Position numbers and translations under genes: made by a program | Part shown: in pieces, positions 20,741-45,139 of the stretch | Numbering within the stretch: the stretch's first letter is position 1 | How the letters are laid out: each line of letters starts with the position of its first letter | The notes under the pieces: generated by a model | The model's database searches: none | What the model saw: the letters and a program-made list of their open reading frames with translations, nothing else | What the model was told of the DNA's origin: nothing | Assembly (NCBI GenBank): GCA_032622095.1 | Contig: CP136062.1 | Location: 55,161,849-55,225,848 of the forward strand | Length of the DNA stretch: 64,000 nucleotides | Direction: 5' to 3' | From: Siphonodentalium dalli | Lineage: Eukaryota; Mollusca; Scaphopoda; Gadilida; Siphonodentaliidae

Positions 20741-21255
20741 TCAACTGATTAATACTTGTTTGATGTACGCTATGACATCTTTGTTTTTGAGAATAGCGAG
20801 GTGCTCCGATTTTTCGAATATTTTGTGATGCACCGGTTCGTGTTGCTCATTTATCCAGCGCAGACAGCCGAGGAGACTTCGTAGATTCACTGTACCATCT
20901 CCGTCATCGGGAATCACTTCGGGCGGATCGCTGAACCAGGTTTTGTTAGTGAAGCGGAATTTCCCTGGAGTCTCCACTTGGTGGCCATGAAGGCAATGTA
21001 ATTCGACGTCAGGTGGCGTTAAGTTATAAATTAAGTTTTTCGTGTCCTGGTACATGGAGTAACCCGTGTTGTACTGGATGTCATTGAAGTATTCCTTAAA
21101 GTTGTTGATCGAGTAATTTTTATGTGGGCTGATTACGAGGACATCGTCGTCGTGCCAGAATTTATCTGACGGCATCAACCAGGCGGTGCTCGGCATGCTA
21201 CGCTGCTCGGGTCTCGCTCTCAATGGGGAGACAAAAGGAATGTTCAAGTTATCAC
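20741..21255 (-). CDS. PLA2G15: PLA2G15 exon 6 (catalytic Asp and His, C terminus)
   Basis: Last exon; the acceptor TCCATTTGCAG ends at 21256. It encodes residues 234-403, starting DNLNIPFVSPLR, with STAWLMPSDKFW, NYSINNFKEYF, YQDTKNLI, LHCLHG, DDGDGTVNLRSLLGC (Asp352) and KSEHLAILKN (His384), stop TGA at 20743-20741. Asn279 (N-Y-S) corresponds to the human Asn273 sequon; Asn310 and Asn336 are further sequons. The open frame runs on past the acceptor to 21307, but that part reads into an hAT-like MITE and is not coding. About 20 bp separate the acceptor from the MITE target duplication. Confidence 0.95.
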
Positions 21256-23749
21256 CTGCAAATGGACGATGAATCATTAGTATCAACCAGGGTCCGCGCT
21301 GGACCAAAATTCACTCTTGCCATATAATTTGCCAAATGAAAATATTTTTTGTCCAATTATTTTAGCATTTGCCAAATTCTATCCCTGATAGTATCATTTT
21401 CTGCAACCTTAAGTCTTATGTTTCGACACTCGCGGTTTGAACGACTTTTGATATCGATAGAAAAGCAGTTAGTTAATAATTAATTATACTCGCATCTCTA
21501 TTGTGGTGTATCATATAACAATAAGCCAATCACCGAACAATACAATGGTAGAAGGATTGCTTCATCTGAAGGACACATCACAGGAGGATTAGCTATGTAA
21601 ACACCACCACATTAAATAGGGTAATCCCTTCAACCCTCGGTACTACTGCTATGGGATAAACTGCTTCTTAATTTTTCTAAACCTTATAAACACAATTGAT
21701 ATAATTATGTTGTAAGAATTTCCTGAAATGAATGATATTGATTGACCAATATTTTTCAACTTTCTTGAGGAATTAAAAAGTGACTTGCCAAAACTTTTGC
21801 CAAATGAAAATATTTGTTTGCCAAATGTGAATTATTTTTGCCATTGGCAAATTTGGCAAGTGGCAGCGCGAACCCTGGTATCAACAGGGACCAGCCTAGA
21901 GGTTTCAATTTGGGAGAAGTCACTTCTCCCTGTTTTGGTTATTAGGGAGAAGTGGACAGTTATCAGGGAGAAGTAACAGTGGCTGAAGTTCAATTTACAC
22001 CCCAACATCACCCTTCAATAAGTATTATTACACCCCCCAACATCACCCTTCTACGGTCCAATAAGTATTATTACACCCCCCAACATCACCCTTCTACGGT
22101 CCAATAAGTATTATTCAACAAAAGAGCCATTTATAAAACCATTATAGTGAGTACGGGTACCATTATAATCAGTAAGTATTCTTTAAATATGCTGTTGGGA
22201 CATGTGCACACTGGTATATGCAAGCCTGCAAATAGCATGCCTGTCATTTTAGGGAGAAGAGGGCTCCAAAGTCTGGTCCCCGAATATCGACGAACACATT
22301 TCCGGATGTCTCTCTTTGTCTCTATTGGTTTGCCATGTGCACTCAATTGTTTTTAGTTCGATACATATAATTTTTTTCTATTTTCTAAAAAGTAAATTTT
22401 TCGCCGTTGCTTGACTATATGAACGAGAATAGATGATGAAATCATGTGGTCAAGCCTTGAAATAGGGTGTCTGTCATTTGCAGAATGAGGTCCCCAGAGG
22501 GTGAATTTAGTGATGCTATCCCGCATAGCAGGCTAGCATCACCAAATTCACCCTCTGGGGACCTCATTCTGCTTACACCTCAGCAGAATGAGGTTCCCAG
22601 AGGGTGAATTTGGTGATGCTAGCCCACTATGCGGGGTAGCATCACTAAATTCACCCTCTGGGGACCTCATTCTGCAAATGACAGACACCCTATTTCAAGG
22701 CTTGCATGTGGTGATTAGAGTGTATAGATTTTTCTGTAAATTCCGCAGGTCCTGAATGTTCTTAACCCTTTCATGATGGGAGCTGCGCTGGTGCAGCATT
22801 AAAGATCCTATGCCAGTACATTCTCTTATATACGCAAGTCTCCCATAGGATATAAGAGAATGTACTGGCTTACAAGGTCAAGGTAAATATTGTTAGGTTG
22901 TATTCTCTTATATATGCGAGGCTCCCTATGGAAGACTCGCATATATAAGAGAATGCATTGGCATAGGGTTTTCGCAAATTCGAGGAAGCTCTGAAATATT
23001 AACATTATAGAAACGAAAAAAATTGTTCGTCGATGCTAAATTGCTAATACCACCAACAAGCCTGAGTTTAGTGTGCCTGTCATTTGCAGAATGAGGTCCC
23101 CAGAGGGTGAATTTAGTGACACTATCCCGCATAGCAGGCTAGCCTCAACAAACTCACCCTCTCGGGACCTCATTCTGCATAGCGCCATGGGAGACATAGA
23201 CTCAGTTCCTAAAAAGTGAATATATTGATGTACACCCATTGGAAACCTCGAATGCGTGTTATTTACAATGCCAGTAAATTAAGTCAAAGCGTTGCCAGGA
23301 TTCGCATAAAACAGTCAACTGGAATCTTATTTACTATAGATACGGTTAACAGAAAGTTGTTCTGATGCTGTTACGAGTAACCCCATGGAACGTACCCAGA
23401 ATAAAGGATATCTCACTTCATAGCATGTAATGTCGATAAAAAAAGGCTTTTCGTGCAATTTCTTTTTTAATTTTTTTGAGGATTGATTACGATGGAGATA
23501 ATCATACTCGGTTGGGAACCTTACTCGTATTTAAATTCGTGCAATACTATTTTTTGCTCAGTTTTGAATTCGTGCACTTTTAATTCATGCAACATGCTGC
23601 GCGAATTCAAAATTAAAATAAATATTCTCGTAAAAGTCTAACAAGAAACTAAGAAATGAGGTCAGCTCAATCAGCTGTTTAAAGCCTTCTTTCAATCTCT
23701 ATCGTGTCCACGCAATTGAACCGATAACTTCATATTCCACGGCGTATGT

Positions 23750-23785
<36 letters not shown>

Positions 23786-26700
23786 GCATTGTCATGCTCA
23801 TCTACAGTAATGCCCTAAGTAATCGCTTGTTGCTATCGGTAATCTCTCCTGAAAAGTTACCCATAATTCTGCTGTGGTTAAGGAGTCGATTACTTAGGAC
23901 ATTACTGTATATCAGACTATTTGGATGATGCCATTTGCTTCTTATTAGAGTACTATGACTGATTTTTACATTCAATATGGTGGGTTTAGGACATATGTTT
24001 ATAATAGCTTAGATATTTGAAGGAATTTTTTTGGCAATCGGCAAAAGCTGATGTTCAACCGTGAGCTCCCATTGATTATCCGATGGGCTATTATCGGCCA
24101 TTATCGGAACATCACTACATGTACGTCTAATGGAAATTGTTAATTTTAACCCAAAAAAAAAGACTTGAGATAATTCTCTCTAACATGTTAAAATTAATGT
24201 TCCAGGGCCTAATAATAATTATAAGCAATCAACATCTATTTTTGTTGCATTTATAGGCGTATAAAAATTTAAGTGGCCAAACATGTATAATTTTGAGAAC
24301 CAAATATGTTGTTCGGCCACTTTAATATAATACTGATTCCAGTACTAACCTGAGGCGAACAGTCGTAGTGGTTTGACTGCCCCTCCCCACACTCCAGCCA
24401 GAGATATCCAGCTCTGTATATACCTGGCTTTCCATGCTCTAGTCTGTTTGTTAAAGAAGTAGAGCAGCATAGGTGAGCCCATACTGTGCGAGAGTAACAC
24501 GACTTTGGTGTTTTTGTTCAGATAGTATGTATCCTGTACTAACTTCTTCAACTCGATGAAAAAGTCCCCAAGTTCATCTGAAAAGAACAATTATCATCCT
24601 TCAAAATTTGTGAATAAAAACTAATGGCAATACAAAATTTTATCATAATTGAAATTGGTTGTTCACCTCTGATAACACAAAGCCTGGAAATATGAAGTTT
24701 TGCCAGGGAACCTTATAAAGTCGAAAATATTACGCGGGGTGTATATTTCTTAGTTGTTAATATCTTCCTTAATAATGTACTTCACTGTAGGTGAATGTCC
24801 CAACTCAAAATTTCATGATTTTCTCTCACTTTTGTGAGCTGATATCGCAATAAACATCAAATTAATTACTCAGTAGATATTCCAAGCGACGCAAAGCAAA
24901 TCGCTTGCAAATTCACTCAGATCGTGAAAATTGGAACATTCACCTAGAGTGAAGTACATTATTATGGAACAGAAAATAACTAAGAAATATATTTCCCGCG
25001 TTATTTTTTATAGTTTAATATTAGGTTCCCTGTCAAAAATTCATAAAGTTCCAAATTTTTGTACTGGTGGAATTTGATCTCTATGGGTGTTAGCCAGAGT
25101 AGAGATTCATGGCATGATCTAAGAAATATGGTGTCTGACATTTGCAGAATGAGGTAGCCAGAGTGTAAATTTAGTGATGCTATTCCCCACAAAATTTTAT
25201 CTTCTTCAAATTAGGTGATATAGAAACTGAAGAGAAGGGAAAATAACTGAAATAATGTTAATTTAAGACTATAGATACTTCCCAGAAGATGAGGCCTAAG
25301 CAGAATGAGGTCCCCAAAGGGCAGTCAAACTATTTACAGGCTTGCCTATGTATACTTTTATAACTGGGTGGGAGAATCCATTCATCAAAGAAAGAGTTAA
25401 ACTCACTTGCAGCTTTTCTGAAGTCGAACGGTGCACCACGGACAGACACATCTCGTTTGTATCCCCAGCTAACGAGGGCATCAACAATGTGACTGAAATA
25501 TGATGCTGGAAAAAAAATATAATTACATTGCTGTGAAAAAAGCAAAAATAAGATTTATGTTCAGCCAAATTAAAAAAATATTTGTGGTTTGGGTTTCCCT
25601 AACGACCCTAAAGTGTTTTTCATGGTTTTCAACAAAATCTATTAATTTTTTTCTCCAAAAATTTCATAAAACACAAAAAAAATCATTTTAGCATCTCAGA
25701 ATAGGTTGATTTCTAAGTAAAAGTATTAAAATTTACACAAAAATAATCAAAAGTAGTTTTATGTCAATCTTGCAGAGTAAAATACACACAAGAAGTCATA
25801 ATTAAATCAAATTAAAAAAATAAAATTTCAAGCATTGGCAATGGGTATTCGCAAAATTTCAGGAAGCTCCAGTCATGGAAGGGTTAACCCTTTCTATAAT
25901 AACTAACCACTATGCTTATGTCACCCAAAAGCGGTAGAAATTAAAGACGGTTTTAAATTTTTAACTTATGTGATAATTTTCAACATTATACTTATAGATT
26001 GGAAAATAGGCTTAAGAGTTTCTTAATTATTTTGTGGCAAATCAGACTGTGGATCTTTAATTGATGGTACATAAACATTCAAAACTTCAAATTTAAAAAG
26101 ATATAACTATTTTATATTTACACATTTAAATTCTGTCATATAAAAGAAGAGAAAATAGCACAATGTTATGATATTCCCAAATTCATGGGTCCAAAGCATG
26201 GTAATAAACAAGACAGTCAAAGACTGTGGGGTCGCTCACCAGACTACAAAGACTGATAAGACTGGGACTCTGGAGACCACAACAGTCAGAACTTTTCATA
26301 ATCATTTTAAAAGAAGTAGATCTAAACAGGATATGTGGCTAGAGAGGCTTCATGTATGTAGATCGGTGAATATCTACCTTGAATTTACCAACTGTACACT
26401 ACTGATCACCCCACCCCTCCTCCAGCTCAACAAGTCCCCTCCCGACCGGGCTCCAGACTCCCAAGTCTTAGGTTGGAATTTCACAACCGACATCTCAAAC
26501 TTTCTCAATTGTTGGAAATTTCAAATCTCACAAGCGCCTTTTTATAAAACCATTTAGACATGTTTGAAGCCCAATTATCCATGGACCCAAAACACCATAC
26601 ATGTATGTCAGATTAATCAGTCAGGTAGTTCCAAGGTAGATGTTTTAATGAATTTTGTATTTTAATGATTTTATTAGACACAAAAGTGTTAAGTCCCCAT

Positions 26701-29700: not shown

Positions 29701-32700
29701 ATTTTTTCTTATATTCTTTAACTCTTTCAGTATTTTGTAGGTTTAGTGCCAGGGAATCTTACGTTTTTCATGGGCATCAAAATTATTACAATGAATAATT
29801 GGTGATAGTTTTGAGTTATTTAAATTGTTTTTAAATTCGCTATAGCATGCTTAAGCATACCCAAAACAAATTTAACCAAAAAAAATCTTTTTATTTATTT
29901 TTTTATTTTTTAGGGCCGATTTTACAGACCGTAAATTAGGGCCGATGAGATCGGCCCCTGACACTGAAAGGTTTAAAATGACTCACTGAACATGTTGTGT
30001 GTAGGATCGAGCCATTCGACTGATGATGTGTTTCCAAATTTAGCTGTCCTTGTTATCACGCCTGGACTGTTCTGTGTCTTGTGGGTTGTGCTGTTGTAAA
30101 CCAGCCTGAAAGTTTAAGTGACAAGAAAATGATAGCACTAGTAACGGTAACTGTTGACACTTTATATGCAATATGGCCACGAGCATCTCTCTCACAGTGT
30201 CACATCCGTTGACATCAACTTCCCCACACCCAACGTGTCCCTTACTATATAGTAATCCATGATGACAACTCGCAAAGGGGAACAAAATGCACACATACAA
30301 ATCTGGAACAATAAACCTCAGCACAGAACCTCAGCGCGCAATTAAATAGAGAGATAGCACGGATCTTCACTCTCCGCGCACCCTACCACTAGTAGGCACT
30401 AACAAGAAGGACTTTTATTAGTCGCCTCCCATATACTTTATGATTAAGTGTCAGAAGACCTAAACTGGAATTTTAGTGGGAAAAAATTTTCTGTCTATCA
30501 AAAATATACAATAACAGCACACAAGTTAAAGATAAGGTAAGCGTTGGTGGTGGGTATTGCATGTTTTACAGTTTGCTTAACCCTTTACCCAACAGAACGG
30601 CCCTGTGCCAATGCATTCTCTTATATATGCGAGTCGACCATAGGTCGCCTTGCATATATAAGAGAATGCATTGGCACAGGGCATAACTGTAACCATCACA
30701 ATGTGGTCAATGAACCGGTTCCAATGATATCCATATTTGTATGGTGTTATTGAGACAGACGGAAGATATTTTAGGCTGTTGAAGCTTTATTTGGGCGATT
30801 TGGCCGTTTTGTTGGGTAAAGGGTTAAAGACTCGGATGGCCTTGGTTATAGGTTATAATTTAGAAATAAAAGTTACCAAATAATGAAAATTTCCCCAAGA
30901 ATATACTAAAAGTATAGTATAATGATAGTATGAATCCAATATTATCCACAAAAAACACTTTGTGTGAGCCAAGAGTTTGTTTATAAACAACGTGCAAAAA
31001 GTGAGCGATAAGCAAAACACTAAACACCATGGCAATTTTTTACGAGAGTGATTCATGGTGACCCATTCAACACCAAAATCCTGAGAGGCAAAGATTAGCG
31101 AGCGCTATACCGGTATGTTGTAAACAACTTGGTGGCATTTCTACTCAAAGTTCACTTAGTGGGGTCTCCCCATTGTTGAGTGTTTTGCTTATCACAAACT
31201 ATTTACAAACTGTTTGTTCACATAACATGGCGTTTGTTTACATAACACAGAGAACTTGACAATAACATGCAATTTAAGCGATATTTATGATTGTATAAGA
31301 ATATAATGGCGGGTTTAACCCTTTACCCAACAGAAGGGCCCTGTGCCAATGCATTCTCTTATATATGCGAGTCGACCATAGGTCGCCTCGCATATATAAG
31401 AGAATGCATTGGCTTAACACATTAAAAATTATAAAATTGTTAAAGAATGTAAGAAAACATGGTTAAAAAAGATTTAGTTTAGGCCAATGCATTCTCTTAT
31501 ATATGCGAGGCGACCTATGGTCGACTCGCATATATAAGAGAATGCATTGGCACAGGGCATAACTGTAACCATCACAATGTGGTCAAGGAGCCGGTTCCAA
31601 TGATATCCATATTTGTATGGTTCTATTGAGACAGACCGAATATATTTTAGGCTGTTGAAGCTTTATTTGGCCGGTTTTGGCCGGTTTGTTGGGTAAAGGG
31701 TTAACAGACAAGTCTAATTTAGGCTGTGCTTTGTTATGGGGATGCCGAGCTCAGGTGTTCTTTTTGGTACTGTATCCTCGAGTTTAGACACGACAGCCCT
31801 GCATGCTCCATGTAATGCATCACAATTAATAAGGAAATGCTCCATCGTCTCAGGTGCTTTTCGACAGAGCTGACAACTTGACAAGAAGGGTCCACTTCAT
31901 TCTTTTTGCAACGCTTTGACAGGAGAGTGTAGGTAATGCCCTAAGTAATCGACTCTTTAACTACAGCAGAATTATGCGTAACTTTTCAGGATTTAGTCGG
32001 AAATATGGCTTGTTGCCATTCATCGGAAAGCTCTCGGTGAGCCATATTTCCGACTAAATCCTGAAAAGTTACCCATAATTCTGCTGTAGTTAAAGAGTCG
32101 ATTACATAGGGCATTATTGTAGGTACCGGTAAGGATTTAAAAAAACTGGTATCGTGTATAATCATGGCTGCTGAGCTGAGAAGTCTGGATGACAGGTTCC
32201 AGTGTGATACATCTTGGAGAGATGGTTGAGTGAGGGATACAGGGAATAGACTTATGCTTACCGTAGCTTTAAGTCTTGTTTGCACTGCATCAGTGCTGTA
32301 GAGTCACACTAGACAAGAGAGCTAATTAACTGAACAAAGAAGGATAATGTACATTGGTACATGTTGACCTAATCAGCCGGTACAAGTATGTCATTTATGC
32401 ATTGAGGGAGATTAATCCGCATTTAATCATCATCAGGATTTCAATAGATGACAGTGGTCCATGTAATTTTTTTAATTTGTATAGCATTTTGCAGCTCTGG
32501 GTATATTTTGTAGGGCATTCCCTACCAATACATGTTTTTTCATTGTAAATTGGTTAGTGCATATCCAGTTAAATCGAGCCCTGGATGACCATAAAAATAA
32601 ACCTTAACCCTTTCAGTGCCAGGGGCCAATCTCATCGGCTCTAATTTACGGTCTGTAAAATCGGCCCTAAAAAAAAAAAAAAAAAAAAAAATTTGTTTAG

Positions 32701-35700
32701 ATTTTTTTGGGTTGAACAAACAAACTGGATAAAACCTTAGGGGCATGTTATAACTCAAATCTATCACCAATTATTCATTGTAATAATTTTGATGCCCATG
32801 AAAAACGTAAGATTCCCTGGCACTAAACCTACAAAATAAGTCTGTTATAAAGAATATAAGAAAAAATTATTAAAATTGTAAAAAATAATAACAAATGATG
32901 AAAAATTGTTAGGCCAATGCATTCTCTTATATATGCGAGGTGACCTATGGTCGATTCGCATATATAAGAGAATGCATTGGCACAGGGTATATGGGTTGAT
33001 ACAAAAATCGGACCTGGCACTCAAAGGGTTAAGTGTTATTTTCATTGTGTAGGGTATTGTTTCTAACTGAACATGCAAAGAATTTATAATTGTTTCTTAT
33101 GATATTTTCCTGACTATTCAGCCCACACAATTGACTACACGGCAATCAGTAATGCCGAAGTCATTTGCTGAAGGGCTGAATATTATACATTAGTTGTAAT
33201 GCTTTTAAGAACATTAAAAATATATTTAGTGAAATAAATACACATAAAAAAAGGTATATTCCAATATTTTGATGCACAACTGCATGATGAAACCTCACCA
33301 AGAAATGTAAAAAAGCTTATTATGTCCTCTTTAAATGATAATCATGATAATTTTGGAAAGAAATCGGATGTAATTGAAAAAAGTAATGGAATTACATATC
33401 TATACATGTATATCCAAGTAATTAATTACTTTCAATTACCTGTAATTGAGAAACGGCCCATTACAAATTACTCTCAATTACATGTACTTGAAAAATGGCA
33501 AACAAGCAGACGCAGACCGCGGTATCCCCCGCCGAATTGTGCAGTTGGGGAAGTGCATTCTCAATAATGTTTGCGTTCTCGGTATGCGCTAAACAAGAGG
33601 TGGGATTTTGTACTGGTCATGGGAACGAATATACCAAAAATCTTTTTAATCCGTTGACATTTGTGAAAATTAGCCCTGTGAAGTCATCCATTTGCACCAA
33701 AAATAATCAACAAAGTCCAATAACACTGCTAAAAATATCCGGCCGGACCTGGTTTGCAAACTCATTCTAGATACTGGTCATGTGAACTCATATACCAAAA
33801 ATCTTTAAAATCCATTGACATTTCTGGAAATGATCCCCGAGACGTCGTCCATTTGCACACAAAAAAATAAACAAAGTCCAATAAGTCCGCTTAAAATATC
33901 CGGCCGGACCTGGTTTGCAAACTCTTTCTAGATACTGGTCAAGTGAACTCATATACCAAATATCTTTGAAATCCGTTGAGATTTGTGGAAATGAGCCCTG
34001 TGACGTCTTCTATTTGTTAAATTCGACAAAAATAATAAACCAAGTCCAATAACTCCGGTAAAAATATCCAGCCGGACCTGGTTTGCGAACTCATTCTAGG
34101 TAATGGTCAGGTAAACTCATATAACAAAAATCTTTGAAATCCGTTGACATTTGTTCAAGTTATGACTCTTACAAATTTGGGACGGACGGAATGACGGACG
34201 GACGGAACCCATTCCTATATCCCCCGCAAATTTCATTTGGCGGGGGATAATTACAATTACCCTATCCATGTCGCCAATAATTGTGGGCTGCAGGGTGTGC
34301 AGAGTGGCTCAAATATGAAATCCCCAAGATGGCCAGTGGCAGCTACACATATTCTCAAAAATACTGTAAGAGTCCATTTTAACGCGGTCCTCAGCCTTTT
34401 ACAAAGCGGTCGTAACAACAACGGAACGCGGTTGTTGCATTTACAATCCATTGAGGGTGCATTGTAACCACGTTATAAATGCTGAGGACTGCATTCAAAT
34501 CAAATGCACTGCCTTGGGAATCAACAAAGTCGCGTTGAAATTTCTTATCAGTGCGCCGAAAAAATAGATAAACGCTGAATTAATCGCCATACATGAGATG
34601 TCCTTTGTGTAAATCACCATGCTAATGAAATAAATTGACTGAAATGACTGTTCCGGTATGCCAATAATTGATCAATTATCAAGATATACACAATCATGTT
34701 AACGTGACATCATCCTCGCTCGAACCCAAGGTGTCACATGCTTCCTCGGTGATCCCCGCTGTAATATACTGTTCAAACACATACCACCAATAATGGTATT
34801 CTGAAGAGGACATGGCTGAAAATCAAGTTTGTGTTTGGTAACACTTTCCCCATGTTTACTGGTCATTTATTCAACAAACATTGTCATATTTAACACAGTT
34901 TATGGAAGAATAACAGGAAGCTGATTATTATTTATGACAATCGGTAATACCGATTGTCATCCGATGGGCCAATATCGGTCGATTCCGATTGTCGTTTCCG
35001 ATCATCAGCACATCACTAAAAAAATTCTATTTTGTTTCATTTACGTTCATGTCTGAATAATTTTGTCTTATTTTCTCACTCCTAGTGTCCGTTCGGACGT
35101 GATGTAGTTTTCCATTCAAATTGATGTTGTAATTGTTTTATATTCACCAAGACATTTGTTTGTGAATAAATAAAGGTAAATGTGTAAAATATTGACAAAT
35201 GCTTAGTTCCGAAATTGCAAAGTAGATCGAGAATGTGGTCGCCTTCCCAAGAACTTTTTAAGGACTTTGCTAACCCAATTTCCCCCAAATTTAATGGAGT
35301 CCAAAATAAAGGTTTATGTTCACTTTTATTAATAACCACAGTAATGAAACCCATGGATGCAACATTTGAAGAGTATAATTCATGGTAGATTATGTTAGAA
35401 ATTCAAAATGTGAAATTTGTAGAAGTTTTAAAAATATATTTTTTCGAACCCAAATTCAACAAACACAAAGATCATATCTAAGAAAAAGACATGGGTATGT
35501 GTACTGAACACTGTGAAGAATGATGAACAATAAAGATATACCCACATTTCTTCAGTTTTATTGAGACTTTTGGCTTGGAAGCAGTTGTTTACAAATGGTA
35601 GATTTCATTGCTCAAAAAAGCTACATGTATTTGGGAACTGAATTTGATGGGTCAAGTTAATGTTCACTCAAGCCAGATGGGATTATGTCCAGCAGGTGCT

Positions 35701-36938
35701 GAATATGAGAATATTATATCCTATTCAGGCTGATTGGTGACATAGTTTCTGGGCTGTGGGGTACCACCAGATTGGGGATTACACAGTTCTTTTGTCAAGA
35801 GATTCACAACACACCACTCTCTACAGATATTAACACTTAACTGTCGCCTCACTACAAGCGATGTCAGGCAAGTTTCTGAATTATTTGTAAACAATTGGTT
35901 CTTAGTAATTTTATCAAAGCATGCTTGATAAATATAAATATTATTTTATTGTTCATCATTCTTCACAGTGTTCAGTACACATTGCCATATTTTTTTCTTT
36001 GACATGGACTTTGTGTTTATTGATTTTGGGTTCGAAAAAATAGATTTTAAAAATCTCTACAATTTTCACATTTCGTATTTCTAACAAATTCCACCATGAA
36101 TTATACTCTTAAAATGTTGCATTCATGGGGTTGGTTACTGTGATTACTAACAAAAGTGAACAGAAACCTTTATTTTGACTCCATCAAATTTGGGGGAAAT
36201 TGGGTTAGCAAAGTCCTTAAGCGCCCTGTATGACTTGACCGACTACATGAGGATCTCAACCAATAAGGACTTTCATACTCAAAAATAAATGTTCACGCAA
36301 TGAATGAATCCCGTTGCCAATTTCTTAATTTATTTTTAAGTAAACAAGACAGATAAAAATCGCCATTATAGGACAATATATCTGGCCGTCATATCGGTTG
36401 ACCAAAACAGGCATGTCAGACCGGCACAAAGACATCACAATGACATATTGCTGGTGGAACCTGAGGCATCGTTCCGTTTACGGTCTCCTCCACTGCGTTA
36501 TGTTGCACCACATTGAGGAACATTGCAACCGCATTGAAGTAACATTGTGACCGCGTTGCGTTAACCCTTTGAGTGCCAAGTCCGATTTTTGTATCAACCC
36601 ATATACCCTGTGCCAATGCATTCTTTTATATATGCGAGGCGACCATAGGTCGCCTCGCATATATAAGAGAATGTATTGGCCTAACAATTTTTCATCATTT
36701 GTTATTATTTTTTACAATTTTTTACAATTTTAATAATTTTTTCTTATATTCTTTAACAGAATTAATTTGTAGGTTTAGTGCCAGGGAATCTTACGTTTTT
36801 CATGGGCATCAAAATTATTACTATGAATACTTGGTGATAGTTTTGAGTTAAAACATGCCCCTAAGGTTTTATCCAGTTTGTTTTTAAATTTGCTATAACA
36901 TGCTTAAGCATACCCAAAAAAAATTCAACCCAAAAAAA

Positions 36939-36975
<37 letters not shown>

Positions 36976-39900
36976 TATTTTTTATTTTTTTTAGGGCCGA
37001 TTTTACTGACCGTAAATTAGGGCCGATCAGATCGGCCCCTGGCACTGAAAGGGTTAACACTAGAATCATGTTGATGGTAATTTTTCAACGCAGTCTCACA
37101 GTGGTTCTAACACGGTCGAGAGAGACACTTATTTTGAGAATATTTTATTCATGTGTATGTTTTTAACAGAATTAAGAAACAACCGTATTAAGCTCTCATC
37201 TAGTGGTCACCCAGAGGATCATTATGAAGATTTGTGATGATCGGAAGAGGGATGTGGCTGTAGGGTGTCCCAAGGATTTAGTTATGCAAAGAGTAAAATC
37301 CAAGATGGCTGCCAGCGGCCATGTTTTTCAATGAAATTCAGAATTGTGGGCTGCAGGGTGTGCCAAAAGATTCAGAAGTGAATTCCAAGATGGCTGCTAG
37401 TGGCCATGTTACCAGTAACAAAATTCTGGAAAAATTATTAGCTCCCGTCTAGAGGTCAACACGAGGATTGATATGAAACTTGGTGACGGTTGGATGAGGG
37501 ATGTGCCACCGATGTGGCCTGTACGGTGTGCCAAAGGAAATTGTTGATGGACGCACGATGGATTCCAACCCGTGACAATAGCTTAAACTTGACTTTGTCA
37601 ATTTGAGCTAACAATATAGGAGTGAAGTAACAAAACAAACCTCATATTGTCCACAAAACAGTCAATCACTAGAGGTGCTAACTCCTCCAAATTGAGCCAT
37701 AAACTGAAGTAATCAGTTGTTTTCTCCGTACAGAAGTAATGTACGACTTTCGTCTTGTTTAGTTTGGCTTCTATTTGACTGCCACCATCACCAGGAACTG
37801 GAAAATTAATACGAGGAATATTGGGTATCCAAATAATATTTCAATATCCAAGTAAGGCAAAACGACAAACCTCATATTGTCCACAAAACAGTCGATCACT
37901 AGAGGTGCGAACTCTTCCAAATTGAGCCATAAACTGAAGTAATCAGTTGTTTTCTTTATACAGAAGTAATGTACGACTTTTGGCTTGTTTAGTTTGGCTT
38001 CTATTTGACTTCCACCATCACCAGGAACTGGAAAATTTAATATGATGAATGCAGGGTATCTAAATTAATATATTAAATGAGAAAAGCAAAGTATCTGAAT
38101 TAATATATTAGTAAATGAGGAATGCATGGTAATTATTAATAAAATTAATAAATTAAATGAGGAATGCATGGTAACTAAATTAATAAATTAAATGAGGAAT
38201 ACATGGAAACAAAATTAATAAATTAAATGAGGAATGCATGGTAACTAAATTAATAAATTAAATTAGGAATGCATGGAACCTAAATTAATAAATTAAACGA
38301 GAATTACAGGGTATCTAAATTAATAATATTAAATGAGGAATGCAGAGTATCTAAATTAATTTATTAATAAATTAAATGAGAATTACAGGGTATCTAAATT
38401 AATAATATTAAATGAGGAATGCAGGGTATCTAAATTAATTAAAGGTCAGCCGACCACAGTGTCCCCCGATAAATGGCAAGTCGATGCTGCTTTGTTAAAG
38501 AAATTGAAAAAAAGTTTTGTTGAAATTTTCTAAGTTGAAAAGGGTTAATAATTTTTCTGTCATCTATATACATGTCGCACATCTCCAATATGTGGGTAAC
38601 AATACTCTGAAGTTTCAAATATCTACGATCAAAACTGTTGGAGGAGTTGATTACGCCATGAAGGTACCCTCATACAGAAAATTATAACAAAAAAATTTAA
38701 GTCGAAAGGCCCATAACTCTGGGAAAGATCATTGGATCAAACTCAAATTCGATCTTGACCTGTATTTTGATATGAACGACCCACAAAAAAACAGAATTTC
38801 CAACTAAACAATCCAAACTTGTGTTATCCTACGGAAACCAAAGAAAAACAAGAATTTTTTTATTTTCTAAGTCGAAAAGCCCATAACTCTGAGAAAAAAT
38901 CATCGAATCAAACTCATATTCGAACTTTACCTGTATTTTTATATCAATGACTCACAAAAAAAATGAATGTTCAATTAAAGGATCCAAACTTGAGATATCA
39001 TCCGGAAACCGAAAAGTGAAAAAAGGGAAATAACTCCATAAAAGAACATCGGATCAAACCCATAATTGCAGAGCACCTGTATTCTTGGTTGAGACACCTA
39101 CATACCAAGTTTCAATCAAATCGGATGATCATTACTGGATTTATAACTCCAGACGGACGGACTGACGCGGCTGATTACATGTACAATAGTCCTAAAATTT
39201 TGGGGAACAATTAAATGAAGACGGCAGGGTATCTAAATTAAATGAGCACTACTGAGGGAAAGGAAGGGGTGCGAAGTACACAACCGAAACAACACCTTTT
39301 GAGTGCATTCAAACATCAAAATCCTTGAAAATAAAAAGACTGGAAACAGCTGCCAGTGCCGGAAAGCAATTTCTTCGGAAATGGTACGAAATTTCCGATT
39401 ATAAATCATGTCTAGTATTTGAAAATTTGGATTGTGCTTAAATTCTATAGGATACAACAAATCTCGACTTATCATGTTCTTCTCAGGGATGTGGCAACAG
39501 GGTTTTGGGGGGGGGGGGGGTGGGTGTCCCACAACCCTCCAAATTTTGTCAAATGTTCAACAGTTGGAAATTTCATAACCTGACACAACATTAGTTGGAA
39601 ATTTCACACCAACAATATGTTGAAATTGTTCTTGTAGTTTGATTTTCAAACAATTTATTAGTAGGAAACTTTTAAGACCAACATTTGCATATTCTCCTAA
39701 ATAATTGACTGAGAATGTCATCAGTTAGAAATTTGCCGACCTTATGTGGGTGTCAGGTAAGGAATTTCCAACACTTGGCAAGCTTGTGTCCTTGTCCCCC
39801 CCCCCCCCTGGCCAGTCAAAAACTGGTAATTATTCAGGGGGGGGGGGGGGGGTCAGGAAAAAAATTACAAATACAAGGTGGAAATTGTGTTTTTCAGTTT

Positions 39901-42900: not shown

Positions 42901-45139
42901 TAATATTAGGTACGATTACTGACGACCGATTATCAAAATCAATAATCGGGGCACCTCTAAGTTTGAAAATTATATTGTATAACTTAGTTATATTGTATGT
43001 GTATATTATTACATCAAATAAAAATCAATAAAGTACATCCTAGTTTCCTTAAACATTTCATAATCCCCTCACACCTCCTAATTACAATTATAATTTTTAT
43101 AGCGCCCGCTATACCTAGGGTATACGTATGCGGATATGAGATATACTAATCAACTTTTTCAGCCCAATTTTAAAATAGATTGAACTTATCTAAAATAGAT
43201 AATTTATTCATAACTCAAGGGTCAGCCGAGTCCAAAATTATTGTTGGCGACGGCCGCCATTTTGTATTGATTAATACCCCCTCGAAAAGTGTAATTGGGC
43301 AAAAGGCTCCAGGGCAAAAATAAATAAAAAAACTTTGTTCCGGCAAATGTTAGCTATACTTCATATGTAGGAACAACATGCTCCTAAAGCCAAAGATATT
43401 TAAAAAATTGAATGTAAATTAAACCAAAGCTCTGGTTAACAAAAAAGTGAAATTGCATGAAAAAGTTTTGTTTACATATTTTATAAAATTATTAAAAATA
43501 TTTTCCCCGAAAGAGGAATATAGGGGCCTTACTGGCCGTTTAGATATTATCTTCCATTTTCTAACGGTATTTTCGCCTAAAAGATTGATGAATTATTCTC
43601 AAAGTTCAAGGCCGACACTTAATCTATAAGTTCCGATTGAAAGATCGCAGAGTCCTTTTAAGATAACGTTTTGGAAAACCAGTAAAGGCGTCATGACATC
43701 AAGACGTGCATCATGACGTCACAACCTACATCGGCGCGCAAAACTACCGACACTGAGGACTGCGTCGATGGCCAGACAGCTGAGACACATATTACACGGT
43801 CAGGATAAACGACACATCTGCCAAACATTTACGTTATATGTGATTATTTACATATATATGATTGTCTTGGGTCCCATTACGGTTTATCATCAAATCCTTC
43901 TAAAGATAAAAATTCATCCGATAATCCCATGAACAGTAACATCTGTTTTTCTTACATATTTGAAAACAATTAAGCTCATCGCTCGCCATAATTGCAAAAT
44001 GCCCTCTTAGTGTGTGACTATCAGGTTTGAATCTAATGAAGATACTGCTTTGTTTGAAAAATTGTTGTCCCGATAAATGGGAATCAATACGTTGGAAAAT
44101 TGTACTGATATTGATATCACTCAAATTTTGACAATTATCGACGAACCATTTTGGTAGCCATCTTTGGTAGCCAGTTTTGAACTAACCGATTTGCCGAAGA
44201 CACACGAGGAGGTCCGGAAAACTTCGAGGTACCACCTAGCTAACAGGTGAAATTTTTTTTTTGAAGTGCGATAAAACCTGGAATAAATCAACGAATAGAT
44301 GCTATGCTCGCGGTAAGGTTATATTGTAGATAAATGATTTTTCTAACGAAATATGCCGAAAACCCTGACTGAGAATTATGCTTTTGTTGTTGAAATTCAC
44401 GGGTCGAAGTGAAGAGTTTTGGGGTTACTTCGACAATCGGAGTTGCCATTCTTGACAATTATATACCTAGAACTCCAAAAAAATCTCAAAAAATTGCATA
44501 AAGCGATTAAAGGTCAGTGATTCCAATTTCTGTGCAAACAGTGTCGGCAGCGATTTTCTTTTATTTCCAAAAAAAAAGTAGATGATCTACAATATGCAAA
44601 AGCAGTCAAGTTGAACTTGGTGCACAAAAGCAAAATTGTGTGCCTGATACAAAATCAGGCGCACAATTATAATTGACAATAAACTGCGCACCTGGCGTAC
44701 CAACGTTTTTCAAAATCGAAGGACAACATCGGAGTCCCGACTATTTTCTTCAACATTTCAACAACATTTCCGAGATCAAAGTTTTATTTAAAAACTCACC
44801 TAGGATTACTGGATTAAGATGCTTAGCGTGTACATACAACGAGGGACATAACACTGTCAATAAAATGAATAAACAGCATCGAAATGTTGTCATTTTGACT
44901 TTTGTTGACCGAGTAAAATGCGCTACTGTTTCCGGTTCCTTATTCAATCACGTGCAGGCACACGTGCGCAGACATCAGGACTAAAAATAGATTTATATTT
45001 CTGCTTGTTTTTCCCCACAAATGAAAGTTTACATTAAAAACTAACCTATGATTACTGGATTGAGATTCTTAGCGTGCACGTACAGCGAGAGGCACAACAC
45101 TGTCAATAAAATGAATAAACATGATCGAAATGTTGTCAT
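20741..45139 (-). CDS. PLA2G15: Group XV (lysosomal) phospholipase A2, whole gene: 6 exons, exons 1 and 2 duplicated
   Basis: LCAT-family alpha/beta hydrolase. Known family role: acid phospholipase A/acyltransferase of the lysosome lumen, acting on phospholipids and N-acylsphingosine. Seen: secretory leader, PGDGG oxyanion loop (Asp35), Cys54/Cys78 (24 apart, as in human Cys65/Cys89), SHSMG nucleophile elbow (Ser188), DGDGTVN (Asp352) and SEH (His384). The Asp-His spacing of 32 equals human Asp360-His392. Exon lengths 94+157+119+99+228+515 give 1212 nt, 404 codons including the stop, with no frame conflict. Intron phases in order are 1, 2, 1, 1, 1. All introns are GT..AG. PLA2G15 fits better than LCAT because of HSMG (LCAT has HSLG). 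The gene spans 24.4 kb. Introns hold many transposons but no exon is interrupted. Exons 1 and 2 are each present twice in tandem. No AATAAA was seen within about 700 nt after the stop; the nearest clear one is at 19904-19909. Confidence 0.93.
21288..21877. mobile_element. hAT-like MITE in intron 5 of PLA2G15, 8-bp TSD
   Basis: TIR CAGGGTCCGCGCTGGACC.. / ..GGCAGCGCGAACCCTG; perfect 8-bp duplication GTATCAAC at 21280-21287 and 21878-21885. Subterminal TTTGCCAAATGAAAATATTT repeats at both ends. Same family as 50778-52242 but without its interior. Confidence 0.9.
22000..22114 (+). repeat. 49-bp tandem repeat, about 2.5 units
   Basis: Unit CACCCCCCAACATCACCCTT + CTACGGTCCAATAAGTATTATTA; the first unit lacks the CTACGGTC part. 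Confidence 0.85.
22451..22704. mobile_element. Double-hairpin MITE, family B, 8-bp TSD
   Basis: Full length, in intron 5 of PLA2G15. Perfect duplication CATGTGGT on both sides. Confidence 0.93.
22762..23002. mobile_element. TTAA-type MITE, family C4
   Basis: TTAACCCTTTCATGATGGGA, hairpins at 22810-22870 and 22900-22962 (CATTCTCTTATATA type), right end GAAGCTCTGAAATATTAA worn. Same subfamily as 4828, 58702 and 63012. Confidence 0.75.
23057..23275. mobile_element. Family B MITE, long form, right half decayed
   Basis: CAAGCCTGAGTTTAGTGTGC, one clear hairpin (23090-23177), then the long-form interior (CATGGGAGACATAGACTCAG) in decay. Confidence 0.72.
23751..23784 (+). repeat. Poly-G run (34 bp)
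   Basis: Uninterrupted G tract in intron 5 of PLA2G15, about 20 bp before a family A fragment. Length is likely uncertain in any assembly. Confidence 0.95.
23803..23909. mobile_element. Foldback MITE, family A, internally deleted
   Basis: TA-flanked; both ends present but most of the left arm and loop are gone (107 bp against 217). Confidence 0.88.
24350..24577 (-). CDS. PLA2G15: PLA2G15 exon 5 (catalytic serine)
   Basis: 228-nt exon, acceptor TTCTTTTCAG, donor GTTAGT. It encodes residues 158-232, ELGDFFIELKKLVQDTYYL, then VVLLSHSMGSPMLLYFFNKQ, then AWKARYI..SWISLAGVWGG..KPLRLFAS. SHSMG is the nucleophile elbow with Ser188; Met189 is the second oxyanion-hole position in the human enzyme. 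The last base joins GT of exon 6 to make Gly233, restoring the family ASGDN junction. Confidence 0.95.
24699..25034. mobile_element. Foldback element in intron 4 of PLA2G15
   Basis: Ends CAGGGAACCTTATAAAG / TATTAGGTTCCCTG, with paired blocks CGCGGG.TATATTTCTTAGTT and TAATGTACTTCAC..GTGAATGT around a loop near 24850. No clear target duplication. Confidence 0.7.
25120..25347. mobile_element. Family B MITE, decayed
   Basis: TGACATTTGCAGAATGAGGT near 25136 and AGCAGAATGAGGTCCCCAAA near 25299, ending CAGGCTTG at 25338-25345; middle lost. Confidence 0.65.
25407..25505 (-). CDS. PLA2G15: PLA2G15 exon 4
   Basis: 99-nt exon, acceptor TTTTTCCAG, donor GTGAGT. Two bases complete Thr124, then SYFSHIVDALVSWGYKRD and VSVRGAPFDFRKAA, then the first base of Asn157. 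It matches human SYFHTMVESLVGWGYTRG and the VRGAPYDWRRAPN block of the alpha/beta hydrolase core. The split Asn codon (A|AT) restores the family AN-E junction into exon 5. Confidence 0.94.
25510..26690. other. Intron 3 sequence without a gene
   Basis: AT-rich. It holds a right-end fragment of the family C4 MITE (about 25835-25888, AGGAAGCTCCAGTCATGGAA then GGGTTAA). A 129-codon open frame at 26168-26557 has no recognisable motif, and I do not call it a gene. Confidence 0.5.
26690..27090. repeat. Pearl-like core repeats, third family
   Basis: Units of about 155 bp (GTTGACCTCATGTTAACAAA / GGTGACCCCATCTGAATAAA / GGTGACCTCATTTGAAAATT). More units at 27961-28250 and 29100-29400. Confidence 0.65.
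27180..27840 (+). repeat. Imperfect direct duplication (about 290-bp offset)
   Basis: CATCTAATCTACAACTAATG at 27189 and 27478, both followed by TTGTATCAGGCATGAAATTT, ACTCCACCCCCTCTACACTC and, further on, ATCTAGTAATATCAATATA. The second copy carries an extra block of about 100 bp (27595-27700). Confidence 0.78.
27846..27968. mobile_element. Family B MITE, left half
   Basis: CAAGCCTGTATTAAGTGTGT with one hairpin; the rest is replaced by pearl-like sequence. Confidence 0.72.
28390..28649. mobile_element. Family B MITE, long form
   Basis: CAAGCCTGAATTTAGTG ... CACTAAATTCAGGCTTG ends; two diverged hairpins. Confidence 0.85.
29080..29513 (+). mobile_element. Pearl-like element, third family, with ACGG microsatellite
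   Basis: Two core units (GTGACCTCATTTGAACAAAT at about 29140 and 29300), then a GACGGACGGACGGACAGACG microsatellite (29405-29460), then terminal hairpin AGACTTCGTCT (29490) and GGTGAGCTAAAAA. The terminal CTCCACCAGAGACTTCGTCT is a common molluscan repeat end. Confidence 0.75.
29527..29976. mobile_element. TTAA-flanked MITE, family C5, next to exon 3
   Basis: TTAACCCTTTGAGTGCCAGG at left, CTGACACTGAAAGGTTTAA at right. The left half holds the core hairpin (29583-29645). The right TTAA ends 10 bp from the exon 3 donor. Confidence 0.85.
29987..30105 (-). CDS. PLA2G15: PLA2G15 exon 3
   Basis: 119-nt exon. The acceptor AACTTTCAG ends at 30106 and the donor GTGAGT starts at 29986. One base completes Arg84, then 39 codons: LVYNSTTHKTQNSPGVITR, TAKFGNTSSVEWLDPTHNMF, then the first base of Thr124. 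This matches the human stretch LVYN..(T)..PGV..RVPGFG.T...E(F/W)LDPS. Asn88 (N-S-T) corresponds to the human Asn99 glycosylation site; Asn109 (N-T-S) is a further sequon. The human PGFG turn reads AKFG here. A TTAA-flanked MITE ends about 10 bp inside the downstream intron. Confidence 0.92.
30577..30827. mobile_element. TTAA-flanked MITE, family C2, single core hairpin
   Basis: TTAACCCTTTACCCAACAGA / TTGTTGGGTAAAGGGTTAA; one hairpin (30613-30676) instead of the two at 31315. Confidence 0.9.
31315..31704. mobile_element. TTAA-flanked MITE, family C2, two core hairpins
   Basis: Inverse-orientation twin of 14808-15207. Hairpins at 31346-31412 and 31484-31550. Confidence 0.92.
31930..32121. mobile_element. 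Foldback MITE, family A
   Basis: Ends TAGGTAATGCCCTAAG / CATAGGGCATTATTGTA; the right inner arm (GCTTTCCGATGAATGGC) is deleted. Confidence 0.87.
32604..33032. mobile_element. TTAA-flanked MITE, family C5
   Basis: Inverse-orientation relative of 29527-29976 and 36561-37057: TTAACCCTTTCAGTGCCAGG..CCTGGCACTCAAAGGGTTAA. The core hairpin is at 32914-32976. A poly-A/T run lies at 32668-32690. Confidence 0.9.
33517..34247 (+). mobile_element. Pearl-like element with four 160-bp core repeats
   Basis: Starts GCGGTATCCCCCGCCGAATT. Four core units (TACTGGTCATGGGAACGAAT at 33611, TACTGGTCATGTGAACTCAT at 33772, TACTGGTCAAGTGAACTCAT at 33933, TAATGGTCAGGTAAACTCAT at 34100), each with AAAATATCC.GCCGGACCTGG. 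Then GACGGACGGAATGACGGACG and terminal hairpin TATCCCCCGC / GCGGGGGATA (34217-34247). The 5' end repeats part of the 3' hairpin. Confidence 0.8.
34826..35127. mobile_element. hAT-like repeat, inverse of 16632-16934
   Basis: Matches that copy in reverse complement along its length (TTGTGTTTGGTAACACTTTC, CCGATTGTCATCCGATGGGC). Confidence 0.82.
35259..36220. mobile_element. 962-bp TTAA-flanked foldback element with about 290-bp arms
   Basis: TTAAGGACTTTGCTAACCCA at left, TGGGTTAGCAAAGTCCTTAA at right. Arms 35259-35545 and 35935-36220 pair with about 85-90% match by eye; the 390-bp loop is single-copy. No transposase motif in the loop. Confidence 0.88.
36561..37057. mobile_element. TTAA-flanked MITE, family C5, longest form
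   Basis: TTAACCCTTTGAGTGCCAAG..CTGGCACTGAAAGGGTTAA. Core hairpin 36612-36678, A-run at 36944-36969. Confidence 0.92.
37185..37600. repeat. Two diverged repeat units of about 250 bp
   Basis: AGCTCTCATCTAGTGGTCAC at 37191 and AGCTCCCGTCTAGAGGTCAA at 37440; CCAAGATGGCTGCCAGCGGC at 37299 and CCAAGATGGCTGCTAGTGGC at 37386. A related fragment is at 34280-34350. Type unknown, perhaps pearl-like. Confidence 0.6.
37641..37797 (-). CDS. PLA2G15: PLA2G15 exon 2a (alternative copy)
   Basis: 157-nt exon exactly 230 bp from copy 2b, with the same acceptor (TTTTCCAG) and donor (GTTTGT). It encodes residues 33-83: PGDGGSQIEAKLNKTK, VVHYFCTEKTTDYF, WLNLEELAPLVIDCFVDNM. Thr47 creates an N-K-T glycosylation sequon at Asn45 that copy 2b lacks (Pro47). 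The Cys54-Thr55-Glu56 loop is acidic here and basic in 2b (Ile55-Lys56). Three of the nine base differences are silent and the reading frame and splice sites are intact in both copies, so neither looks like a dead exon. Because 157 is not a multiple of 3, using both copies together would shift the frame. Confidence 0.9.
37871..38027 (-). CDS. PLA2G15: PLA2G15 exon 2b (alternative copy)
   Basis: 157-nt exon with acceptor TTTTCCAG and donor GTTTGT. It encodes residues 33-83, starting PGDGGSQIEAKLNKPK, then VVHYFCIKKTTDYF and WLNLEEFAPLVIDCFVDNM, and finishes with AG of Arg84. It carries oxyanion Asp35 and both cysteines of the conserved disulfide. It differs from copy 2a by 9 of 157 bases and 4 residues: Pro47, Ile55, Lys56, Phe71. 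Pro47 matches the family (human KLDKP), so this copy looks closer to the ancestral form. It lies just 3' of an AT-rich minisatellite in intron 1. Confidence 0.9.
38040..38440. repeat. AT-rich minisatellite beside exon 2b
   Basis: About ten degenerate units of 30-45 bp built on ATGAGGAATGCAGGGTATCT and AAATTAATAAATTAA. The unit is the same sequence that flanks both exon 2 copies, so the array looks like an expansion of the intron flank. One more unit sits at 39211-39240, beyond a pearl-like insertion (38440-39210). Confidence 0.8.
38440..39210 (+). mobile_element. Pearl-like element, second family
   Basis: AAAGGTCAGCCGACCACAGT start, core units (GGCCCATAACTCTGGGAAAG 38708; AGCCCATAACTCTGAGAAAA 38878; GGAAATAACTCCATAAAAGA 39026), GACGGACGGACTGACGCGG, end TTTTGGGGAACAATT. 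It sits inside the exon-2-flank minisatellite. Confidence 0.78.
39300..40890. other. Intron 1 stretch with G/C homopolymers
   Basis: G14 at 39507-39520, C-run near 39796-39808, G-run near 39837-39851, with GTCC.CACCCAC motifs related to 41350-41420. The rest shows no gene or recognised repeat. Confidence 0.55.
40895..41029. repeat. Foldback repeat (about 60-bp arms)
   Basis: AATACCGGAA / TTCCGGTATT ends and a perfect inner stem GTGGTCACAGTGAGATACTG around GGCCTAAAAGGCC. Confidence 0.85.
41868..42081. mobile_element. Foldback MITE, family A
   Basis: TA-flanked; left end GCAATGCCCTAAGTAATC slightly worn, right end intact. Confidence 0.9.
42082..44778. other. Intron 1 stretch without a supported gene
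   Basis: No exon or repeat that I can support. Two spots stand out: GACGGCCGCCATTTTG at about 43249-43264 (YY1-like motif) and CATCATGACGTCAC near 43707 (CRE-like core). 43680-44250 is less AT-rich than its surroundings. Confidence 0.45.
44800..44893 (-). CDS. PLA2G15: PLA2G15 alternative first exon 1a (signal peptide)
   Basis: Second copy of the first coding exon, about 246 bp 3' of copy 1b. ATG at 44893-44891 (context AAAATGA). It encodes MTTFRCC, a hydrophobic core (LFILLTVLCPSLYV), HA, then KHLNPVIL, and ends in G before a strong GTGAGT donor at 44799. An in-frame upstream extension exists only from a non-ATG codon, so this ATG is taken as the start. The family counterpart is the short PPVVLVPG strand that precedes the oxyanion loop in human PLA2G15. 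The donor matches the consensus better than that of copy 1b (GTTAGT), so 1a may be the dominant form; that is inference. Confidence 0.86.
44930..45024 (-). promoter_or_regulatory. Putative promoter of exon 1a (two E-boxes, ETS core)
   Basis: Paralogue of the exon 1b promoter. ETS core at 44930-44935 and two CACGTG E-boxes at 44949-44954 and 44961-44966. CACGTG is the core of the CLEAR element bound by TFEB/MITF factors in vertebrate lysosomal genes. The sites here match the core only, not the full ten-base consensus, so regulation by such factors is inference. Confidence 0.4.
45046..45139 (-). CDS. PLA2G15: PLA2G15 alternative first exon 1b (signal peptide)
   Basis: Upstream (5') copy of the first coding exon. 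ATG at 45139-45137. It encodes 31 residues plus one base: MTTFRSC, then a hydrophobic core (LFILLTVLCLSLYV) ending HA at residues 22-23, a typical signal peptide with likely cleavage after Ala23. Then KNLNPVII. The donor GTTAGT follows at 45045. The last base G joins TT of exon 2 to give Val32 before PGDGG. Compared with copy 1a it has Ser6 for Cys, Leu17 for Pro, Asn25 for His and Ile31 for Leu. Length and phase are identical to 1a, so either can splice to exon 2. The start is chosen because it opens the leader and aligns in both copies. Confidence 0.82.

Follow-up and report, generated by a model that had tools for sequence, protein, structure and literature searches.

Tandem copies of coding exon 2 in a scaphopod PLA2G15 gene are candidates for mutually exclusive use

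We identified two adjacent copies of coding exon 2, here called 2a and 2b, in the PLA2G15 (lysosomal phospholipase A2) gene of the scaphopod Siphonodentalium dalli. They are probably the product of a real and old tandem duplication, with both copies kept by selection as alternative exons and one of them used per transcript. The gene is complete, with six coding exons on the minus strand of the window, by which we mean the whole 64,000-nucleotide stretch of DNA analyzed; the genome containing it is a 2.23-Gb assembly of 9 contigs. Coordinates are collected in Table 1.

Table 1. Positions in the window of the PLA2G15 coding exons and of the intron features around the two exon 2 copies
Feature	Position	Strand	Description
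Coding exon 1	44800..44893	-	ATG; open frame MTTFRCC...NPVIL; donor TAG/GTGAGT; phase 1 at end
Upstream intron flank of 2a	38028..38090	-	homologous to 2b flank: 58 aligned sites, 11 substitutions, 4 indel events
Exon 2a	37871..38027	-	157 nt; P47, I55, K56, F71
Intron between 2a and 2b	37798..37870	-	73 nt; no internal AG
Exon 2b	37641..37797	-	157 nt; T47, T55, E56, L71; N45-K-T sequon
Coding exon 3	29987..30105	-	conceptual coding sequence
Coding exon 4	25407..25505	-	conceptual coding sequence
Coding exon 5	24350..24577	-	SHSMG motif, which aligns with the catalytic serine region of LPLA2
Coding exon 6	20741..21255	-	last exon; includes the stop codon

Introns of the exon model have AG and GT at their ends, with consistent phases throughout. 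Coding exon 1 splices in frame to 2a or 2b alike, and the conceptual coding sequence specifies 403 amino acids with either; its N terminus, judged by eye, resembles a signal peptide. The PF02450 (LCAT family) profile scored 251.3 bits for the 2a form and 250.9 bits for the 2b form (positions 1-391/392 covered). The closest solved relative was human group XV phospholipase A2 (LPLA2), at 391.5 bits for the 2a form and 388.9 bits for the 2b form; LCAT scored well below this (304.6 and 296.6 bits, respectively). On these scores the gene is assigned to group XV phospholipase A2 (PLA2G15/LPLA2) within the LCAT family PF02450. The initial annotation had named the gene PLA2G15, and the identification holds, with LPLA2 as the best solved relative and a PF02450 match of nearly full length. 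It had also placed exon 2 at the oxyanion-hole loop and the neighboring disulfide, and alignment agrees: D35 and the conserved cysteines C54 and C78, which are present in both isoforms, correspond to human mature residues 13, 32, and 56. Asp13 of LPLA2 (Cys31 in LCAT) is reported to adjoin the oxyanion hole (PMC6027918), and LCAT is reported to have a Cys50-Cys74 disulfide (PMC6277198).

A genome search with PF02450 gave 2 matches, both inside PLA2G15, making this the sole LCAT-family gene detected; the same search skipped exons 2 to 4 of PLA2G15, so that a paralogue with short exons could escape likewise. No other LCAT-family gene that might serve as an outgroup was found in the genome by this search, which is insensitive to short exons, and the ancestral state was judged from human LPLA2 and LCAT alone.

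The two copies are identical at 148 of 157 nt, a resemblance far beyond chance. The 9 differing sites fall in seven codons and give four residue changes from 2a to 2b (P47T, I55T, K56E, and F71L). Start-to-start spacing is 230 nt, and each copy has TTTTCCAG on its acceptor side and GTTTGT on its donor side. The two 157-nt copies 230 bp apart that were described at the outset, with their shared acceptor and donor, open frame, and 9 base differences, were thus all reproduced at the coordinates in Table 1, and the residue numbering is exact with coding exon 1 as placed there. A genome search with the exon 2 peptide listed 4 matches: the two copies themselves and two further ones with chance-level E values (2.78 and 5.9); a missing match in this search is not proof of absence. 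The resemblance extends into the upstream intron flanks, where the local alignment score was 24.5, compared to a maximum of 16.5 in 2000 single-base shuffles (the 58-site alignment leaves out the last CAG). Downstream of the donors, homology was not above that of shuffles (P = 0.30). Since the upstream flank is homologous and the downstream flank is not, the copied unit would consist mainly of upstream intron and exon. The aligned upstream stretch takes up 64 of the 73 nt available, with exon 2a lying beyond, and the 230-nt spacing fits a unit made up of at least about 64 nt of upstream intron and the exon plus a few bases of the donor.

A 35-nt minisatellite of 10.9 copies (38037 to 38439) runs into the acceptor flank of 2a, and its units resemble that flank; one diverged unit is found in the 2b flank (37806 to 37837) and another at 39215 to 39238.

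We compared the divergence of the exon copies with that of the upstream flank, the only stretch used as a yardstick. Synonymous sites differ by 4.5 changes per 32 sites (about 14%), and nonsynonymous sites differ by 4.5 changes per 121 sites (3.7%), for a dN/dS of 0.24, with zero indels in the exon; the flank is 19% substituted, with 4 indel events. In Fisher tests, which used 5 and 4 whole changes, synonymous divergence was indistinguishable from that of the flank (P = 0.78), whereas nonsynonymous divergence was lower than that of the flank (P = 0.0009) and, more narrowly, than synonymous divergence alone (P = 0.02). If one copy had escaped constraint from the duplication onward, the expectation would be 10.4 to 11.5 nonsynonymous changes, with a P value of 0.018 to 0.008 for 4 or fewer, and about 5.4 indels, where 0 were observed (P = 0.0045). 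Because the flank and synonymous sites have diverged to a similar extent, nonsynonymous change is slow, and indels are absent from the exon, neither an assembly artefact nor a copy dead since the duplication is likely. These results favor selection on both copies over a copy dead since the duplication, which we consider unlikely; the totals involved are low (9 differences over 157 nt), and a copy silenced only recently would satisfy these tests as well.

The strongest rival to alternative use starts from that last point: one copy, probably 2a, would be normally spliced, and the other would be a functionless duplicate, either silenced recently or used only rarely. Consistent with this, 2b departs at two positions where human LPLA2 and LCAT have the same or a similar residue (mature residue 25, Pro in both, and residue 34, Lys and Arg), and an open frame across 157 nt after nine changes is probably not rare by itself. 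Nevertheless, the shortage of nonsynonymous changes and indels is at odds with a copy dead since the duplication, and the splice sites of 2a and 2b are both intact. We regard a functionless second copy as unlikely, if still the most credible of the alternatives.

We next consider why a transcript would carry one copy. The initial annotation had argued that, with 157 nt not being a multiple of 3, a transcript with both copies would be frameshifted. Conceptual translation bears this out: joining 2a to 2b shifts the frame and brings a TGA three codons into 2b, and skipping both copies likewise shifts the frame and leads to an early stop. The further claim of mutually exclusive use drew on the same reasoning; the frame logic, the splice sites, and the 73-nt intron all speak for it, and the exclusive splicing itself is what we infer from them. 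The remaining introns of PLA2G15, from exon coordinates, are 829 to 7535 nt long. As a yardstick from the same genome, 58 adjacent exon-match pairs of the CCT family (PF00118) had a smallest gap of 491 nt and a median gap of 4701 nt; this yardstick covers 73 of 76 listed matches of a single family, with boundaries taken from profile matches. An internal AG is absent from the 73-nt intron, as it is from 480 (3.4%) of the 14123 stretches in introns 1 and 2. Two branch-point-like adenines are 18 and 37 nt away from the 2a donor; a third motif-like adenine lies only 8 nt from the acceptor. The motif used is loose (T at -2 and a pyrimidine at +1), and these are guessed rather than mapped branch points. 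Mutual exclusion of exons 4a/4b in vertebrate OGDH is reported to be enforced by branch points 25 to 41 nt from the donor, the limit being about 50 nt (PMC7969005). In PLA2G15, adenines outside the motif have distances to the 2a donor of 49, 50, and 52 nt, right at this limit, and the block need not hold there. The geometry of the 73-nt intron thus favors a steric block without proving it. We think that a steric block backed by decay is the likeliest mechanism. In this mechanism, the 2b branch point would lie within about 50 nt of the 2a donor, so that the copies would rarely be joined, and any 2a-2b or exon-skipped products would be removed by nonsense-mediated decay. Frame, decay, and probably steric block all point to mutually exclusive use of 2a and 2b.

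The same frameshift, with its TGA three codons into 2b, could instead serve as a poison-exon switch, in which joining 2a to 2b lowers the level of the enzyme and no choice between proteins is made. However, a poison exon need not conserve amino acids, and 2a and 2b have conserved theirs; moreover, the 73-nt intron between them is unusually short by the CCT yardstick. We therefore consider this switch very unlikely.

Two other marks of alternative exons gave little. Following the idea of RNA docking sites described in PMC6071210, we ran 4 scans for a single intronic site pairing with the flanks of both copies (introns 1 and 2, each with both upstream or both downstream flanks), with 30 shuffles each. 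In three of them, 2, 9, and 16 of the 30 shuffles were equally good. The fourth, with the downstream flanks in intron 1, was equaled by none of the 30; its site, at about 39.8 kb, contains C and G homopolymer runs, and we do not count it. A docking-site/selector mechanism is thus not convincingly supported. Donor scores against U1 were -6.1 for both 2a and 2b, close to those of exons 3 and 4 (-5.7), with -10.6 for exon 1 and -9.6 for exon 5, and they give no clear argument that weak donors mark 2a and 2b as alternative exons.

With a single assembly, the second copy might be taken for a copy-number polymorphism carried only by some individuals or haplotypes. The 14 to 19% divergence of synonymous and flank sites instead suggests an old duplication rather than a young polymorphism, and we give this possibility very little credence. 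An assembly artefact, with haplotype copies laid out in tandem, is the least credible reading of all: neighboring exon-match sets with equal or near-equal scores, which could be unpurged haplotypes, do occur elsewhere in the assembly for CCT, but the substitutions and 4 indels of the flank and the divergence at synonymous sites appear to exceed usual allelic divergence, and homology downstream of the donor does not go beyond shuffles. The paired CCT (PF00118) sets are about 37 to 174 kb apart (C7, 133.43/133.49 Mb; C1, 54.08/54.25 Mb; C1, 68.35/68.53 Mb; C8, 26.61/26.65 Mb). Judged on scores, they would be recent tandem duplications or unpurged haplotypes.

Under the preferred reading, that both copies serve as alternative exons, the outcome would be two forms of the enzyme distinguished by four residues within or close to the membrane-binding domain. 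In an ungapped alignment to LPLA2, residues 47, 55, 56, and 71 correspond to human mature residues 25, 33, 34, and 49. Site 25 is Pro in human LPLA2, LCAT, and 2a and Thr in 2b, where this Thr47 completes an N45-K-T N-glycosylation sequon that 2a lacks. The gain of a sequon is not significant: 7 of 348 nonsynonymous single changes would produce one, or about 8% for four changes. Site 33 is Ser in LPLA2, Tyr51 in LCAT, Ile in 2a, and Thr in 2b; it is reported to belong to the activator pocket of the membrane-binding domain, which takes in the LCAT disulfide, and the S33Y substitution is reported to have lowered the Tm of LPLA2 (PMC6277198). Beside it, site 34 is Lys in LPLA2 and 2a, Arg in LCAT, and Glu in 2b, a charge reversal (K34E). 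At site 49, LPLA2 and 2b have Leu, and LCAT and 2a have Phe. L49F is described among the substitutions that give LPLA2 an LCAT-like active site, where it was tested only in combination (PMC6027918), and the corresponding LCAT residue, 67, is within the stretch 67 to 72 of the membrane-binding domain (PMC6277198). Sites 33 and 49 lie in the membrane-binding domain of LPLA2/LCAT, with site 34 adjoining site 33. The 2a form would keep Pro25 and Lys34, and the 2b form would have the extra sequon, K34E, and Leu for Phe at site 49.

Asp13 and the cysteine positions are unchanged between 2a and 2b, and both forms should therefore be active; they may differ in how they contact membranes, in surface charge and glycosylation, and in acyl-chain fit. 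The 2b product is barely further than the 2a product from human LPLA2 (388.9 versus 391.5 bits), so the forms may hardly differ. Over 51 positions, identity to LPLA2 is 32 for 2a and 31 for 2b, and identity to LCAT is 27 and 25, a slight edge that does not make 2a clearly the more conservative copy. Nor are the changed sites significantly enriched at positions where LPLA2 and LCAT differ (3 of 4, compared to 17 of 51 positions; P = 0.10). A more ambitious scheme, which we hold to be doubtful, is a splicing switch between a family-typical lysosomal enzyme (2a) and a form (2b) that bears one more N-glycan and whose membrane-binding face is altered. Such a switch would shift the site or pH of action and the acyl chains used, as a single-gene counterpart of the vertebrate split between LPLA2 and LCAT.

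Mutually exclusive exons that arose by tandem duplication are already well known, and PLA2G15 would be an addition predicted from sequence. Published criteria for such exons are similar length, splice-site and frame compatibility, and homology (PMC3228551), and 2a and 2b agree in all three; in X-chromosome genes of the fly, 90 of 16180 non-mutually-exclusive exons are reported to show these features (PMC3228551). One of the closest likenesses is to exons 4a/4b of vertebrate OGDH, as described in PMC7969005: a metabolic enzyme, a combined exon length that is not a multiple of 3, and a size-restricted intervening intron whose branch points come closer than about 50 nt to the upstream donor. OGDH is a different enzyme, and its branch points and splicing were mapped experimentally, whereas the branch points of PLA2G15 are motif guesses. 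Homologous exons in an enzyme gene are also found in coq-2 (exons 6a/6e) of nematodes, annelids, and molluscs; coq-2 encodes a quinone-synthesis enzyme, and its mutually exclusive exons alter a part thought to guide the substrate to the active site (PMC7434440). That pair spans several phyla and changes two core helices (PMC7434440), whereas the PLA2G15 pair differs at four residues and comes from one genome. As an internal control, we looked for the coq-2 exon pair in this genome; there was no evident tandem pair among the 7 PF01040 matches. Exon 10 of the oyster alternative oxidase is likewise a tandem exon copy in a single-copy mollusc enzyme gene, with one conservative copy and the other altered near functional sites (PMC5589949). 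In contrast to the internal, frame-incompatible copies of PLA2G15, the oyster copies are terminal exons, each with a stop of its own, and a single mRNA contains both (PMC5589949). The 236 events of tandem duplicated exon substitution described in humans also involve homologous exons used singly, with mostly conservative changes (PMC9741552); the main text of that study has no mention of PLA2G15, phospholipase, or lipase. In a literature search that left most subscription journals outside its reach, we found no report of exon duplication or mutually exclusive exons in PLA2G15/lysosomal phospholipase A2. If both forms are made, they would be a natural LPLA2 pair set apart by only four sites within or close to the membrane-binding domain, of which sites 33 and 49 (human numbering) have already been mutated in laboratories probing LPLA2 and LCAT (PMC6277198, PMC6027918). 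The question of substrate and membrane binding would then become a comparison of two proteins, and a lysosomal lipase would join the metabolic enzymes with exon choice.

Other repeats were seen in the introns of this gene. Tandem repeats comprise a 161-nt unit in 3.3 copies (33611 to 34154) and a 171-nt unit in 1.8 copies (38698 to 39010). A palindromic stretch with ATATATGCGAGGC-like arms, 94% complementary, lies at 36612 to 36680, and a similar ATATATGCGAGGC-like palindrome was noted by eye at about 22810 to 22970; such palindromes recur in the introns and are perhaps a mobile hairpin element.
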